Below, piece after piece: positions 8,988 through 18,310 of a DNA stretch of 33,471 bases. A program made the position numbers and the translations under genes. The notes below the pieces were generated by a model. That model saw only the letters and a list, made by a program, of their open reading frames with translations, searched no databases and was not told where the DNA came from. Every line of letters begins with the position of its first letter. Position 1 is the first letter of the stretch. The stretch comes from Spirochaetaceae bacterium (lineage in GTDB: Bacteria > Spirochaetota > Spirochaetia > DSM-27196 > SLAA01), in contig PWQX01000043.1 of the NCBI GenBank assembly GCA_003556605.1, positions 1-33,471 of the forward strand, given 5' to 3'.

Positions 8988-11182
8988 TGGAACACCTTAC
9001 CAAACATTTGTCCCGTACCGAGCGTGAACAGGGGCTTGCAGCGTATCGCAAACATATCCTGTGGAACGGCCTTGGTATCTACCTGCTAAATCACACTGTG
9101 GCCTCACTGCTGGCGATTCATTTCGGCGCCAGCAACCTGCAGCTCGGCTACATCACATCGGCCTTTCACATAGCCGGACTCGCCGCCCTGGTTGTGCCGC
9201 GGCTTCTTGCCGGCAGAAACATCGGCAGCGTCTATTCCGGAGCGTGGCTGCTGCGCGGTCTGATCTGCTTGGGATACGGCGCTCTGTTCTTCCTCGACGG
9301 GCAGCCGGCGGTCATTACCGTGATGGCGGTGTTCACCGCGTTTGCGGTTGCGCGGGCGATGGGCATTGCGATGGTCCACCCGGTACAACGCACGATCATG
9401 CTCGATCGCGAAGCCGGCGGCTTGGTGGTGGGGATAAACATCCGCTTATCGATCACGCAGATGCTCTCGCAGCTTCTCAGCTTCCTGCTGTTATCGGTAC
9501 AGGCTTTCAGCGGGTTGTTGGGTTTGGTAGGGCTCACCTACATCGGGGCCACTATGAACACCATCGCCGCGGCGCACCTGCGCCGGATACCCAGCCGGGA
9601 GAGCATTGAGTACCGCCGCGGGCGGGGCGTTGTGCCGACCTTACGCGAGGCGATGCAGAAACGTACGCGCTCTCATGCGCTCTGGATTCACTGGCTGAGT
9701 TTGGCAATCGTTGTCTTGTTCGGTTTTCAAATCCCCTACTTGAGACGGGTTGTGGCGATGCCCAACAACCTGGTCTTTCTGTACATGCTGTTCGGTAGTA
9801 TTGCCTCCATCGCCGCGGGAGTAGCGCTGAAACCGTTCGCCGACACCTTCGGGGACCGGCCGGTGGTGATCCTCGCGAGTGTGGCGACGATGGCGATCGC
9901 GCTGGTCTGGGTTGTACTGCCGGGTGATCTTCCCTATCACTGGTATTACGCAATGGGGTTCGCGACGTTTTTTCTGTATAAGCTGCTCCTGATCATCCAG
10001 AACAGCGTCTTCATCAAGTCGATCCCCGAGCACGAGCGGATCAGTTACTCGACGATGGCGCAGTTCTTTACCGCAACCGGAGCACTGCTCGTAGGGCTTA
10101 TCGGTGGCGGGCTCGCCGACCTGCTCGTCGGACGCGAGCCGGCCGGGCTGCATATGTTCAGTCTTACTTACCTACTGTTGGTTGCGATCGCCGCAGCGAA
10201 TCTGTATTTCGGAATCGTAATGCGCGAGCGCGGAAGTCTCTCGCTGCGAGAGAGCACCGCGATTCTTCTTTCGGCCAAGAACCTCAAAGCGTTTCTCGAC
10301 GTATACCAGCTGGAGAGCAGCGAAGACCCGATCAAACGGGAAACAACGCTGCTGTCGCTCGAGCGCAGCAGTACCTTGGTAGCCACCGCGGAGCTTCGCA
10401 AACGCCTAAAGTCACCGCGGGCCTCCGATCGCGAGCGCATTCTGCGATCGCTATACGCCTATCCGCGCCCTGAGCTCTTACATCAGATCATTGCGGAGGC
10501 GCTCGACTCCGACTCATACACCCGCAGGCTCGCGATATTCACGCTCGGTGCCTACCCCGAAGCCGCGGTTTTCCCGGTCCTCCGGGATATCGTTGCCGAG
10601 GACAACATAGAAACCACCGCCGTAGCGCTGAAGTCGCTCGCCCGTGTTGGGTCGCGCGAGGAGCTGCAGTTCATACACCAGCTGCTGAGGGGGCCGGCGC
10701 TGCCGGCGCGCGCCGAGCTGGAGCTGGTGGTTGCGCTCTCAATTATGGACACCGATGGCGCGTGGCTTGTAGACCTCTTTCAGATCGCCGCGCGCAGAAC
10801 AAGTCCCCGCTTCAAACAAGCGGTGTACGGCATCGCCGCCCGCAGCATTGAACCGAACAGCACGCTGTACGAGCTGTTTTACCTCGAGAATCAAGAAGCG
10901 GGTCAGGGCTTCGCCGAGCTCGTCGACGAAGCCCGCCACTTCACGGTGATCGACCAGGCGTCCCGCGAAATGCAGCAGCGCTATAACCGCGCGGCGTACA
11001 CCGATCTGCAGATACTGATCCGTTCAATTGCGGATGCCGTTGTCATCTCAGACCGCCCCGAGGCCGGTGTTCGCCGCAGCATTCGCAGCACGCTGTCGGC
11101 CGAGAGCCCGAGCTTTGTCGATTCCTCCGACGCCATCGCCGGACTGTACCTGCTGTATTACCTCCTAGAGCAGGATCATTGA
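8987..11182 (+). CDS. MFS-type transporter with a large C-terminal HEAT-like domain
   Basis: A protein of 731 residues. Residues 1-412 contain about 12 hydrophobic helices arranged like a major facilitator protein, with a cytoplasmic loop at about 200-230 (RRIPSRESIEYRRGRG) between helices 6 and 7. Residues 415-731 are soluble and helix-rich, with HEAT-like repeats (YTRRLAIFTLGAYPEAAV, TAVALKSLARVGSREEL), ending in a family-specific segment. Typical MFS proteins are about 400 residues, so the C-terminal 300 residues are an added domain, possibly regulatory or protein-binding. The substrate is unknown. The start is GTG at 8987, whose G is the last base of the rlpA stop, so the two are translationally coupled. 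A link to cell-wall metabolism is suggested only by this coupling. Confidence 0.75.
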   Translation: MEHLTKHLSRTEREQGLAAYRKHILWNGLGIYLLNHTVASLLAIHFGASNLQLGYITSAFHIAGLAALVVPRLLAGRNIGSVYSGAWLLRGLICLGYGALFFLDGQPAVITVMAVFTAFAVARAMGIAMVHPVQRTIMLDREAGGLVVGINIRLSITQMLSQLLSFLLLSVQAFSGLLGLVGLTYIGATMNTIAAAHLRRIPSRESIEYRRGRGVVPTLREAMQKRTRSHALWIHWLSLAIVVLFGFQIPYLRRVVAMPNNLVFLYMLFGSIASIAAGVALKPFADTFGDRPVVILASVATMAIALVWVVLPGDLPYHWYYAMGFATFFLYKLLLIIQNSVFIKSIPEHERISYSTMAQFFTATGALLVGLIGGGLADLLVGREPAGLHMFSLTYLLLVAIAAANLYFGIVMRERGSLSLRESTAILLSAKNLKAFLDVYQLESSEDPIKRETTLLSLERSSTLVATAELRKRLKSPRASDRERILRSLYAYPRPELLHQIIAEALDSDSYTRRLAIFTLGAYPEAAVFPVLRDIVAEDNIETTAVALKSLARVGSREELQFIHQLLRGPALPARAELELVVALSIMDTDGAWLVDLFQIAARRTSPRFKQAVYGIAARSIEPNSTLYELFYLENQEAGQGFAELVDEARHFTVIDQASREMQQRYNRAAYTDLQILIRSIADAVVISDRPEAGVRRSIRSTLSAESPSFVDSSDAIAGLYLLYYLLEQDH

Positions 11183-12375
11183 GCTATTGTGACCGCCGCG
11201 GCGCGCAGCACCGCACTGACTGGTGCGTAATTGGGATACGTCTCGGCGTCAATGAAGTACACCTCTCCGCGGTGACGCCAAGTCTCGCGTACCGCCAAAT
11301 CGATTAGATCGATATTACCGTTCTTCTGAGCAGCAACCGCATCTTCGTCGGCGAAATCGGATATCTGCACGTCTTCATCGGCACGCTCGAACGTGCCCCA
11401 TATCGGCCGGCTGGGGTCTACGAAGAGCGTATCGACGTGACCGCGCGCGGCCGCGATAACGATGTCGCGCACATCAACGCTCGAGTGATTGCGGCCGAGC
11501 TCACGCTCGAACCGTTCGAGCGCGGAATCCAGCTCGCGCGTGATGCGTGGAGCAACCAATTCCCAAGCACGGCGGTGAAGCTCATACTCGTCCACGCGTT
11601 CGGGACTACCGGGCACGTACTGCCCGTGAATGCTAGGGTAAGAGCTTTGCTTGCGATAACAGCCCACTAGATATTCTACTCCCGCCAAAACCAGTGGAGT
11701 ACTCGAGTCCGAAAAACGCGCGCGTACAACGGAATCCAGTTGCTCGAAGAACTCAATGACATACTTTTTGTTCTGTTCTTCGCCGGGATATTGCCCGTGC
11801 GCGACAGTTCCCGGCGCCTTTCCCGCACCGGTGCCCGATGTATAGGCGCCGAGGTTACGCTCGAACTCCAAAGGCCTGAGATACTCCTCCAAGGCGGCCG
11901 GAACACCGTTCAGCGGGACCGGCGAAAACGAGTACCGCGTAGCCTCGTACAACCGGACCTTTTTGAGATTGAGCGCCAACACTGCGAACCGACCGTCGGC
12001 ACGATGAAGCTGCAACAAAGGCGACAGCATGAACTGATCGTCCACCCGACACACGCGCATCGGACGTACCGGCAAGCTGTAAGTCTGAAAAGAATCGGGG
12101 CTGAGAAACACCGCATACCCGCGTGCGCCCCCTTGCCAAGGCGCAGGCTTTTCCATCTCGCGGTGCAAAGGGCGCAGCAACTCGGACACCTGCCCGGAAT
12201 CGCAGCCGTGCGCCTGCAAAATCTCCTCAGCGTCACGAACCAGGTTCTTCAAGTCGATGACGTTCTCGGTTTCGCGTTTAGTGCTATGCTCGAGCGGAAG
12301 CACGAGCGATACGCACGGCCCTGTTCGATCTCGCGCTATAGCATCCAATGCCTCGGTAATCGAAAACTGCAGCAT
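11176..12375 (-). CDS. baeRF3-family protein (bacterial relative of archaeal/eukaryotic release factor 1)
   Basis: A protein of 399 residues. I recognise the baeRF3 pattern: PCVSLVLPLEHSTKRETENV then DLKNLVRDAEEIL at the N-terminus; GYAVFLSPDSFQTYSLP; FAVLALNLKKVRLYEATR; PLVLAGVEYLVGCYRKQSSY; GHVDTLFVDPSRPIWGTF; and DLIDLAVRETWRHRGEVYFI near the end. Family proteins are related to domains 2-3 of aRF1/eRF1 and are proposed to act on ribosomes; no activity is established for this one. The ATG at 12375 is chosen because GGAGGT stands 5 nt upstream; the in-frame GTG at 12390 would place that site inside the gene. The 3' end overlaps the convergent MFS gene by 7 bp. Confidence 0.78.
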   Translation of the reverse strand: MLQFSITEALDAIARDRTGPCVSLVLPLEHSTKRETENVIDLKNLVRDAEEILQAHGCDSGQVSELLRPLHREMEKPAPWQGGARGYAVFLSPDSFQTYSLPVRPMRVCRVDDQFMLSPLLQLHRADGRFAVLALNLKKVRLYEATRYSFSPVPLNGVPAALEEYLRPLEFERNLGAYTSGTGAGKAPGTVAHGQYPGEEQNKKYVIEFFEQLDSVVRARFSDSSTPLVLAGVEYLVGCYRKQSSYPSIHGQYVPGSPERVDEYELHRRAWELVAPRITRELDSALERFERELGRNHSSVDVRDIVIAAARGHVDTLFVDPSRPIWGTFERADEDVQISDFADEDAVAAQKNGNIDLIDLAVRETWRHRGEVYFIDAETYPNYAPVSAVLRAAAVTIAQ

Positions 12376-12382
12376 GCAGCAC

Positions 12383-12412
12383 CTCCTCACGTGCGTCGAT
12401 AATCACCTCCTC
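12383..12412 (-). promoter_or_regulatory. Two strong Shine-Dalgarno sequences in tandem before the baeRF3 gene
   Basis: On the minus strand GAGGAGGTGAT is followed about 15 nt later by GAGGAGGT, 5 nt before the ATG at 12375. The first copy has no ATG at a usable distance; the in-frame GTG at 12390 lies about 15 nt after its GGAGG core, which is long. The first copy may be a standby site or serve an alternative GTG start. Confidence 0.45.
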
Positions 12413-14829: not shown

Positions 14830-15843
14830 ATGAATTATTCACGCTCGGGCTCTGTGCCGCTGTATCTTGCTCCGATGGTCACGCTTACCCACGCCGGTCT
14901 CCGCCATCTGATTGCCGAGTTTGGAGGGTGCGACCGCTATTACACCGAGATGATCAGCGCGGAGGCGATTACCGCCCATAGCGCCTTTCACCGGTGGTAC
15001 CTGGATCTGCAGCCTGAGCCCGAGCGTACCGTATACCAGTTTCTCTTCCGCGACGCTGCCGCGGTCAAGGCGGTGGCCACGAAGATCGCCGGTCGCGGCG
15101 GGCTGGGGATAGACCTAAACATGGCCTGTAGCGCCCCGCACATCGTCCGCGCCGGCGGGGGCATCGCGTGGATGAAGCGTGTAGATGAGGCCCGGCGGGC
15201 TGTGGCCGCGGCCCGCGAGGTGCTGCCGGATGCGCACCTATCGGTGAAACTGCGCCTTGGAGAGCGCCGCGAGATAGAGCAACTGGCGAGATTCGCTGTG
15301 AGCTTATGCGCCGCAGGCGCCGGGGAGCTCACTCTGCACCCCAAGACGCGAAAGGAGCCTGAGGCGCGCCCGGCAGACTGGCGCTTTGTTGCAGAGCTGC
15401 AGCAACGGGTTGCGGTGCCGGTAGTTGCAAGCGGAGGCGTAAGCGACATTACCACACTTGAATACCGGATCCGCCGCTATGAGCCGCGCGCGGTGATGAT
15501 TGGACGCGAGGCGGTACGTTCGCCATGGATCTTCGCGCTTGCGCGCAACGCGCAGCTTGTTATAGACCGGCTGGCGGTCGCCCGCCGTTTCGGGGCACTG
15601 CTTCGCGAACACCAGCCCCCGGAGTTTCAGCTCACGCGTGCCAAACGGTTTTATCAGTACTACACTCAGCCCTTGCAATGGGGCACGCGCCTGTTCGCAG
15701 CGCTAAAGACCGCGCGCTCTATGGCCGAAATCGAACAACGGGTAGGTGTATACTTTGCCGAGCACCCGCAAGACCGATATCCCGAACCGTCTCGCCGGCA
15801 GCACGCGCACACGGTTCCGGCGGCAGCCGCTGCGCTACAATAG
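14830..15843 (+). CDS. dus: tRNA-dihydrouridine synthase family protein
   Basis: A protein of 337 residues. Dus enzymes are FMN-dependent TIM barrels that reduce uridines in tRNA loops. Visible: LYLAPMVTLTHAGLRHLIAEFG at the start of the barrel, DLNMACSAPHIV where the catalytic Cys lies (most family members have a GCP motif here), LSVKLRLG, LTLHPKTRKEPEARPADW (usually HxRT), VVASGGVSD and AVMIGREAVRSPWIF for phosphate binding. The C-terminal helical domain (FYQYYTQPLQWG) binds tRNA. The ATG at 14830 has GAGG 5 nt upstream, better than the GTG at 14764. The deviations in the GCP and HxRT motifs mean the subfamily (A, B or C) cannot be stated. The next gene starts 7 nt later. Confidence 0.87.
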   Translation: MNYSRSGSVPLYLAPMVTLTHAGLRHLIAEFGGCDRYYTEMISAEAITAHSAFHRWYLDLQPEPERTVYQFLFRDAAAVKAVATKIAGRGGLGIDLNMACSAPHIVRAGGGIAWMKRVDEARRAVAAAREVLPDAHLSVKLRLGERREIEQLARFAVSLCAAGAGELTLHPKTRKEPEARPADWRFVAELQQRVAVPVVASGGVSDITTLEYRIRRYEPRAVMIGREAVRSPWIFALARNAQLVIDRLAVARRFGALLREHQPPEFQLTRAKRFYQYYTQPLQWGTRLFAALKTARSMAEIEQRVGVYFAEHPQDRYPEPSRRQHAHTVPAAAAALQ

Positions 15844-15850
15844 GAGCATC

Positions 15851-17449
15851 GTGCAGGTAACCGCAAACGCTGCCGCCGGCCGGACCACACCGGTACGGTT
15901 TGTTTTAGCCGTTCTCGGGTTGTTTCTGCTGCCGGCCGCAACTCCGGCGCTAGCGGCGCAAGTGCGCCCGGCGTACTTCGATCAGCCGGCCGAAGTCGTG
16001 CTACCGGCCGGCTACAGCTCACAGCGCATCTATCCCGTGTTCGTCGTTTTGCCTCCTACCGGTGCGCGAGCCTCGCATATGGCACGCCGCATGGGCTTGG
16101 ACCCGGAACGGCAACGCGAGTTTATCCTCGTATTCCCCGCCGGCCGGCCCGACCGCACCGAGTACCTACCCGACTTCATTCGGTTTGTCGAGTGGTACGA
16201 GGAGCGCTTATTCGCCGACCTAGACCGCGTGTTCGACACTTACGGCGCCAATCCGTCCGAGGTGTATCTCGGCGGCTACTCACTCGGGGGTGACTTGAGC
16301 TGGGCGCTTGTCGCGCGTAATCCGGACCGATTTGCGGGTGCGGTGATGGCCGGGACCAGGGCCTCTTACCCGGTCACCGAAGCTGGTCTCCAGCGGATGC
16401 GCGAGAGTGGGTTCCGCGGGGCATTCTTGATCGGCAGCCGTGAAGACCGGGCCCGCTACGAGGGAATCAACTATGTGCGCCGCAGCTTGCAAGAAGCCGG
16501 AGTGGCCAACCGCTACGCCGAGTACCCCGGAGGCCACGTGATGCCGCCGACCGGCCGGCTGCAAACCAAGATTGCGTACGTGGCCGGCATCGAGACTCTG
16601 CCCCCCGGCGCACCCACCGGCGTGCGCACAGCCGCTTCCTCGACCCGCCGGCCGGCCCCGGGAGGCGACCCGCGGCCCATTCCGACTGAGACGCTGCAGC
16701 GCCATCTCACTCGCCCGACCCGCGACAGAGTCGGATTTCGCTTCGGTTTACCCGCCGAGGTGGGCGCGGACGGATGGCAATCGGCGCGCGATAACGAGGT
16801 ACGCGTGCGCGTTGAATGGCCGTGGTCGCGCTATTATCTGAAGAGCCTCACCACCTACAATGGAAGCGAGGTCTCTACCGCTCTGAAGCATCGCCGCTTG
16901 AGCCAGGCGCTGCTATTCGGTATGGGAGCGGAAGGCGCGACGGCATCAGATGGCCGGATCATCGGCGCAGGCGTCGGGTGGGATTGGCTGCGTACCTTTG
17001 ATGATGACGGCAACGCGCTTCGCCAGGTAGAACTCTTGTTCGTGCGCGGCGACCGCAACCTCAGTTGGCTGCCGCAGCGCTGGCACGGAGGCGAACGAGT
17101 CGACTCCCTTCTGACTCTCCGCTATATCCTGCCCCGTGGAATCGCAGCGCAGTTCGTGCCCGAACACGTCTTCAATCTCCGCGCGCAGTATCTGCTGCGG
17201 TTGGCGGAGTTTGTTGTGATCGACACCGGTGTCGGCTCTTACACGGTACAAAACCGTTCGGTCTCAAATACCGGCGAGCTTCTCGATGCAATCGATCATC
17301 GACTGGAGTGGGAGCTCGGCTTCGGAGTACGTGCGCCCGCTCCCTTTCTGTGGCGCGTAAGTCACCGCGGTACCGCCGAGCGCGCCTTACCGGATGGGTC
17401 GTTCGAGTACCGGCCGGCTTGGCGCTTAACCCTTGAATACAGTTTTTGA
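15851..17449 (+). CDS. Exported alpha/beta-hydrolase (esterase) with predicted C-terminal outer-membrane barrel
   Basis: A protein of 532 residues. The start is GTG at 15851: AGGAG lies 4 nt upstream and overlaps the dus stop codon, and a signal peptide follows (VRFVLAVLGLFLLPAATPALA). Residues 40-245 resemble esterase D/PHB-depolymerase hydrolases: PVFVVLPPTG, nucleophile Ser144 in GGYSLGG, probable acid Asp199 in GSREDRARYE, and His229 in YPGGHVMPP. A Pro/Arg-rich linker follows. From about residue 292 to the end the sequence alternates polar and hydrophobic residues in strand-sized stretches and ends WRLTLEYSF, with the C-terminal aromatic residue typical of outer-membrane barrels. I infer a surface- or periplasm-facing esterase anchored by an 8-10 stranded barrel. 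The substrate is unknown. Confidence 0.7.
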   Translation: MQVTANAAAGRTTPVRFVLAVLGLFLLPAATPALAAQVRPAYFDQPAEVVLPAGYSSQRIYPVFVVLPPTGARASHMARRMGLDPERQREFILVFPAGRPDRTEYLPDFIRFVEWYEERLFADLDRVFDTYGANPSEVYLGGYSLGGDLSWALVARNPDRFAGAVMAGTRASYPVTEAGLQRMRESGFRGAFLIGSREDRARYEGINYVRRSLQEAGVANRYAEYPGGHVMPPTGRLQTKIAYVAGIETLPPGAPTGVRTAASSTRRPAPGGDPRPIPTETLQRHLTRPTRDRVGFRFGLPAEVGADGWQSARDNEVRVRVEWPWSRYYLKSLTTYNGSEVSTALKHRRLSQALLFGMGAEGATASDGRIIGAGVGWDWLRTFDDDGNALRQVELLFVRGDRNLSWLPQRWHGGERVDSLLTLRYILPRGIAAQFVPEHVFNLRAQYLLRLAEFVVIDTGVGSYTVQNRSVSNTGELLDAIDHRLEWELGFGVRAPAPFLWRVSHRGTAERALPDGSFEYRPAWRLTLEYSF

Positions 17450-17578: not shown

Positions 17579-18310
17579 ATGCACAACAGCACGGCTAACT
17601 TGAAAAAATGGGGAGCGATACTGGTTCTGGCTGCGGTATTCAGCCTTCCGCTGTTCGCCGCCGGAGGATCGGAAGAACCTGAAGCGACGGAGGAGCAGTC
17701 GGACTCCGGCGAGCGCAGCATTATCGTCCATTCCGGTCAGACGCCTCTCGAGGTGGAATACATCACCACCGCCGAAGCCACCGAGCAGGGCTATGAAGCG
17801 GCGACACTCGCCGGCGGATGCTTCTGGTGTATGGAACCGCCGTACGAAAAGCTTAACGGGGTAATTGATGTCACCTCGGGCTTCAGCGGGGGCGAGCTCG
17901 AGCACCCGCGCTACCGCCAGGTCGTAGAGGGCGGCACGGGTCATGTCGAGGTGGTTCAAGTGATTTTCGATCCCCACATTATCAGCTATGCTGAGATTCT
18001 CGACGTGTATTGGGTTAACATCGACCCCTTAGACGACGGCGGGCAGTTCTGCGATCGCGGGGATATCTACCGCAGCGCAGTCTTCTACCACGACGAAGAA
18101 CAACGCCGGATTGCCGAGCAGTCGAAGCGTGAGCTCGAGGAAAGCGGCAGGTTCAGCGACCCGATAGTCACCGAGATACGCACCTATGAAGAGTTTTACC
18201 CGGCGGAGAACTACCACCAGGGGTATGCCCGAAAGAACCCGGTTCGCTACAACTTCTATCGCTCAGGCTGCCGGCGGGACGCGCGTTTAAGAGAGCTGTG
18301 GGGCGAGTAG
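17579..18310 (+). CDS. msrA: Exported peptide-methionine (S)-S-oxide reductase MsrA
   Basis: A protein of 243 residues. It reduces methionine-S-sulfoxide in proteins. The active site GGCFWCM is at residues 79-85 (Cys81 catalytic, Cys84 second cysteine). SGGELEHPRYRQVVEGGTGHVEVVQ, INIDPLD-type and FYPAENYHQGYARKNP segments are standard MsrA; further Cys residues (QFCDRG and the near-terminal SGCRRD) may act as resolving cysteines. The first 28 residues are a signal peptide (WGAILVLAAVFSLPLFAA), and the mature part starts GGSEEPEATEEQ, acidic as in many spirochaete exported proteins, so it works outside the cytoplasm. The ATG at 17579 follows AAAGGAG. No msrB is fused or adjacent. Confidence 0.93.
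   Translation: MHNSTANLKKWGAILVLAAVFSLPLFAAGGSEEPEATEEQSDSGERSIIVHSGQTPLEVEYITTAEATEQGYEAATLAGGCFWCMEPPYEKLNGVIDVTSGFSGGELEHPRYRQVVEGGTGHVEVVQVIFDPHIISYAEILDVYWVNIDPLDDGGQFCDRGDIYRSAVFYHDEEQRRIAEQSKRELEESGRFSDPIVTEIRTYEEFYPAENYHQGYARKNPVRYNFYRSGCRRDARLRELWGE

Follow-up and report, generated by a model that had tools for sequence, protein, structure and literature searches.

In the window, the whole 33,471-nucleotide stretch of DNA that was analysed, one forward-strand gene (15851-17449) very probably encodes an exported protein in which an alpha/beta-hydrolase is followed by a linker and a predicted 12-stranded outer-membrane barrel. The first-pass annotation had proposed an exported hydrolase and a barrel in one protein, and this is borne out by a Pfam match to Abhydrolase_1, a signal peptide and a barrel predicted with 12 strands. 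Enzymes fused to outer-membrane barrels are a known kind of protein; what is new here is the hydrolase family together with an uncatalogued barrel, recurrent in spirochaetes. In our partial coverage of the literature, no published description of an alpha/beta-hydrolase paired with an outer-membrane barrel was found, nor was any mention of spirochaetes in the two autotransporter reviews searched. The enzyme-on-barrel proteins treated in PMC6555100 belong to proteobacteria (EstA, ApeE, McaP, PlpD) and to Fusobacterium (FplA). We lean with modest confidence towards an esterase that would be tethered to the outer membrane and placed in the periplasm.

The gene and its enzyme half

The reading frame starts with GTG and runs for 532 codons, the last residue being Phe. 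It lies directly downstream of a dihydrouridine-synthase (Dus) gene, whose stop codon occupies 15841-15843; an alternative in-frame start at 15746, which would mean a 98-base overlap with Dus, is less likely. The signal peptide and its cleavage site were assigned by inspection. No lipobox cysteine was seen on inspection of residues 1-35, and the whole protein is free of cysteine. A promoter scan near the gene found none, and terminator-like sites near it were no more frequent than in shuffled sequences. The features of this part are as follows.

15842-15846, + strand: Shine-Dalgarno-like AGGAG, 4 bases 5' of the GTG and overlapping the Dus stop, read from the sequence
15851-15955, + strand: residues 1-35 (RFVLAVLGLFLLPAATPALA^A), a probable Sec signal peptide, from the sequence and the similar N-termini of homologues
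15965-16585, + strand: alpha/beta-hydrolase (esterase) domain, residues 39-245, from Pfam PF00561 and the LC-Est1C (3wyd) profile match
16280-16282, + strand: nucleophile Ser144 in GYSLGG, kept in 28 of 28 homologues
16442-16444, + strand: probable catalytic acid Glu198, at the G-x-x-D/E position after a strand, Glu in 22 and Asp in 6 of 28 homologues
16535-16537, + strand: catalytic His229, kept in 28 of 28 homologues

The Pfam model Abhydrolase_1 scores 28.0 bits over residues 135-255 (cut-off 25.8; E 2.2e-6), and this score and the Ser-acid-His set present in all 28 homologues place the enzyme half in the alpha/beta-hydrolase superfamily. It had been assigned before to a hydrolase family other than GDSL, correctly so: no GDSL family was matched in Pfam, and the serine motif, GYSLGG, is not that of a GDSL/SGNH esterase. 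For the enzyme half, a profile built from 11 homologues found LC-Est1C as its best PDB match (E 9e-14), followed by carboxylesterases and feruloyl esterases, including those of CE1. The solved chains of this group resemble the enzyme half and lack an outer-membrane barrel; in most of the spirochaete family, moreover, the acid is Glu.

The catalytic set proposed earlier was Ser-Asp-His, of which the serine and the histidine stood. The acid is most likely Glu198 and not the adjacent Asp199, because position 198 is Glu or Asp in every homologue, whereas at position 199 an Asp is present in just 13 of the 28; the set would then be Ser144-Glu198-His229. In the full-length model the enzyme half is weak (pLDDT 30-60), so the placement of the enzyme with respect to the barrel is not fixed by it, and the barrel region is the more confident part. 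A Foldseek search with this model matched both esterases and outer-membrane barrels.

The barrel half and its second architecture

The C-terminal half is described by two features.

16727-17446, + strand: predicted 12-stranded outer-membrane beta-barrel, residues 293-532, from AlphaFold2, Foldseek, VIA-align and strand alternation
17420-17446, + strand: putative C-terminal barrel-assembly signal WRLTLEYSF, aromatic or hydrophobic at every second residue, with terminal Phe

AlphaFold2, run on residues 283-532 alone with nine relatives, gave 12 antiparallel strands (pLDDT 81, pTM 0.79), a count that takes residues 294-311 as a single kinked strand. The first-pass annotation had read the last 240 residues or so as alternating strands ending in Phe. 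The Phe is there, and the mean in/out hydrophobicity alternation of the predicted strands is 1.35, against 0.60 +/- 0.13 in shuffles (p ~1e-4), a value reached by none of 10,000 within-strand shuffles. Of the outward strand residues, 71% are hydrophobic and 22% aromatic, compared with 27% and 6% of those that point inward; since the faces were assigned by the same hydrophobicity, this composition follows from the alternation test and lends no added support. Among the inward residues, 33% are Asp, Glu, Arg or Lys, and many inward Arg, Glu and Asp are conserved. The last nine residues conform to the known BAM signal, and a C-terminus of the form (L/V)EYSF/Y is retained in most homologues.

With the barrel half as query, the best Foldseek matches were outer-membrane barrels, and nearly all of the 50 matches listed by VIA-align were membrane barrels. 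The leaders were the oligosaccharide porins VhGalP, NanC and KdgM, which share the 12-stranded fold (Z 14.7-15.3, rmsd 2.9-3.8, 169-194 residues aligned) at 8-10% identity; they are stand-alone barrels and, by Pfam, have no sequence family in common with the barrel half. Further matches were invasin (Z 14.0), NalP (13.4), EstA (13.1, 4.0 A over 193 residues, for its barrel at residues 338-622 of 628) and FapF (12.5). By sequence, none of the families in Pfam and NCBIfam, the autotransporter beta-domain included, matched the C-terminal half at E<=1, and a PDB sequence-profile search with it gave no match.

Had the C-terminal half been a soluble beta-sandwich or a carbohydrate-binding domain, the protein would be an ordinary secreted esterase, and some CE1 esterases that match the enzyme half do bear carbohydrate-binding modules (7b6b). 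Yet neither kind of domain appeared in the structure prediction, and the predicted 12-stranded barrel, its fold matches, the strand alternation and the BAM-type C-terminus make this alternative very improbable.

A profile of the C-terminal half also recovered a homologous C-terminal domain in proteins of about 520-790 residues from other families of the class (L043-L050 and L113-L116). The motifs WDW, FRLPxPFLW and EYSL/F are common to both groups of barrels. The N-terminal part of this second architecture is unrelated to the esterase and consists of a short domain, which may be LPP20-like, followed by a long sequence that appears helical by eye. The proteins of this kind that we tested scored above cut-off with none of the Pfam and NCBIfam models and had no credible PDB sequence match. 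A profile of the barrel family would make it possible to annotate proteins that are at present without any match. This second architecture indicates that the barrel family has been re-used.

Placement relative to the outer membrane

According to the mechanism that we propose, Sec would export the protein and BAM would insert its C-terminal half as the 12-stranded barrel that prediction and fold comparison point to. The disordered linker would then keep the alpha/beta-hydrolase close to the outer membrane, where it would probably hang on the periplasmic face, as the N-domains of MOSP/Tpr and FapF do, and cleave acyl, feruloyl-like or other small esters found near the polar-lined barrel or arriving through it.

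16586-16726, + strand: flexible Pro/Ala/Gly/Arg-rich linker, residues 246-292, from low pLDDT and the alignment of homologues

Both ends of known barrels face the periplasm, which we counted for a periplasmic placement. On balance, this placement is slightly favoured over surface display, because there is precedent for it and no pore helix is predicted, and also because the linker is Pro-rich and variable in length (28-57 residues across homologues, counted from aligned residue 243) and the homologous barrel stands elsewhere behind a long helix-like N-terminal part. The full-length model has no long helix before strand 1, only a short, low-confidence one at residues 279-287. As for precedent, the bipartite MOSP/Tpr proteins of treponemes, also spirochaetes, combine a soluble N-domain, held in the periplasm, with a C-terminal barrel (PMC5643300, PMC8407342). 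Unlike the protein described here, their N-domain has no known enzymatic role, and their barrel forms trimeric porins; no MOSP-type Pfam match was found for the whole esterase-barrel protein. FapF, the amyloid exporter of Pseudomonas, likewise has a 12-stranded barrel behind a linker and an N-terminal domain, which is periplasmic despite the autotransporter-like barrel (PMC5557850); that domain is a coiled coil, and identity is 6-8%.

The counter-example is EstA, whose similar barrel carries its enzyme on the surface, and an extended linker of at least 28 residues could thread the pore as in inverse autotransporters. By this alternative, the hydrolase, helped by the barrel to leave the cell through or with BAM, would remain attached to the surface as an autotransporter-like esterase. 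We regard this as a real possibility, though one that we would not bet on. Domain order and strand number are those of EstA (PMC6555100, PMC9289746), EstA and NalP are among the close fold matches, the linker is long enough, and the absence of cysteine is common in passengers. The lack of a Pfam autotransporter domain at E<=1, of a predicted pore-spanning helix, and the Pro-rich linker speak against it, as do those bipartite barrel proteins of spirochaetes whose topology has been examined, which hold their N-domain in the periplasm (PMC5643300). Loop lengths and conservation do not settle the topology, with long or variable loops on both sides of the barrel. In two homologues (L006 and L009), the loop that joins strands 5 and 6, which is predicted to lie outside the cell, is extended by an acidic stretch of about 12 residues.

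The type Va plan is present, that is, a signal peptide (by inspection), an N-terminal passenger and a C-terminal predicted barrel of 12 strands, and in overall plan the EstA-type autotransporters come closest; membership in type Va is not claimed. EstA, ApeE and McaP likewise are single exported proteins with an esterase at the N-terminus and a 12-stranded barrel at the C-terminus. The domain order had been taken at first to be the reverse of theirs, which does not hold, as EstA too has its enzyme N-terminal and its barrel C-terminal (PMC6555100). The differences are instead that theirs is a GDSL hydrolase, whereas here the GYSLGG alpha/beta-hydrolase precedes a barrel with no Pfam autotransporter match and no long predicted pore helix. 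The patatin-like type Vd proteins PlpD and FplA also place a lipase or esterase on an outer-membrane barrel (PMC6555100), with a patatin dyad, a POTRA domain and a TpsB-like barrel; none of these was found here with Pfam and NCBIfam, and the strands number 12. The recurrent spirochaetal fusion, with its different hydrolase and uncatalogued barrel, is well suited to the question of whether a 12-stranded barrel at the C-terminus exposes the N-domain on the outside or keeps it within.

Within the periplasmic reading, the barrel could be a KdgM/NanC-like porin for acidic or acylated oligosaccharides, whose tethered esterase would strip esters on entry. The best fold matches are oligosaccharide porins, conserved charged residues point inward, and CE1 feruloyl esterases are among the enzyme profile matches, but likeness among 12-stranded barrels is generic, the inward charges may make a closed salt-bridge network, and no conserved neighbours suggest carbohydrate use; we consider this sub-case unlikely. 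More broadly, we suggest tentatively, and with less than even confidence, that an unnamed family of spirochaetal 12-stranded barrels may be a portable module, an anchor in the outer membrane or a channel through it, that is joined to two or more unrelated N-terminal parts: the esterase in one order and, in several other families of the class, a helix-rich part. The esterase form would then be an enzyme-tethered porin that processes esters at the outer membrane by a non-type V route.

Recurrence of the fusion and its neighbourhood

A search of genome contigs found nine relatives in spirochaete metagenome assemblies, eight of them spanning both halves. Searched with each half separately, the genomes of the taxonomic order, for the most part metagenome assemblies, contained the enzyme half in 27 of 46 and the barrel half in 28 of 46. 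The fusion recurs in related spirochaetes, in one group from salt and soda lakes. Uncut, unbroken homologues in the order all have both halves in one frame, with no unfused one among them; the remaining copies either run into the end of a contig (G003, G005, G008, G019, G028) or are broken (G042). In the latter (L038, G042:C185:9-567), the enzyme half is spread over two frames close to the contig start, either a broken gene or an assembly error. One homologue (L028, G013:C1:2928950-2930455) lies in a complete genome of 3,285,855 bases from the same order, and two assemblies hold two esterase-barrel genes each (G018, contigs C414 and C48; G043, contigs C19 and C181). Beyond the order, G057 encodes a 231-residue enzyme without the barrel, and weaker matches to the enzyme came from G442 and G337.

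Dus, MsrA, a thioesterase and other neighbours are kept beside the gene within the genus only, and in six other lineages the flanking frames, compared by eye, differ. Neighbour genes were considered as a clue to function; not being conserved beyond the genus, they give no hint of the substrate. The gene for MsrA (methionine sulfoxide reductase, 17579-18310), which has an apparent signal peptide, adjoins the esterase gene in this genus-only association. Elsewhere in the window, the reverse strand at 11176-12390 encodes a protein that matches several baeRF (bacterial archaeo-eukaryotic release-factor) families at once.
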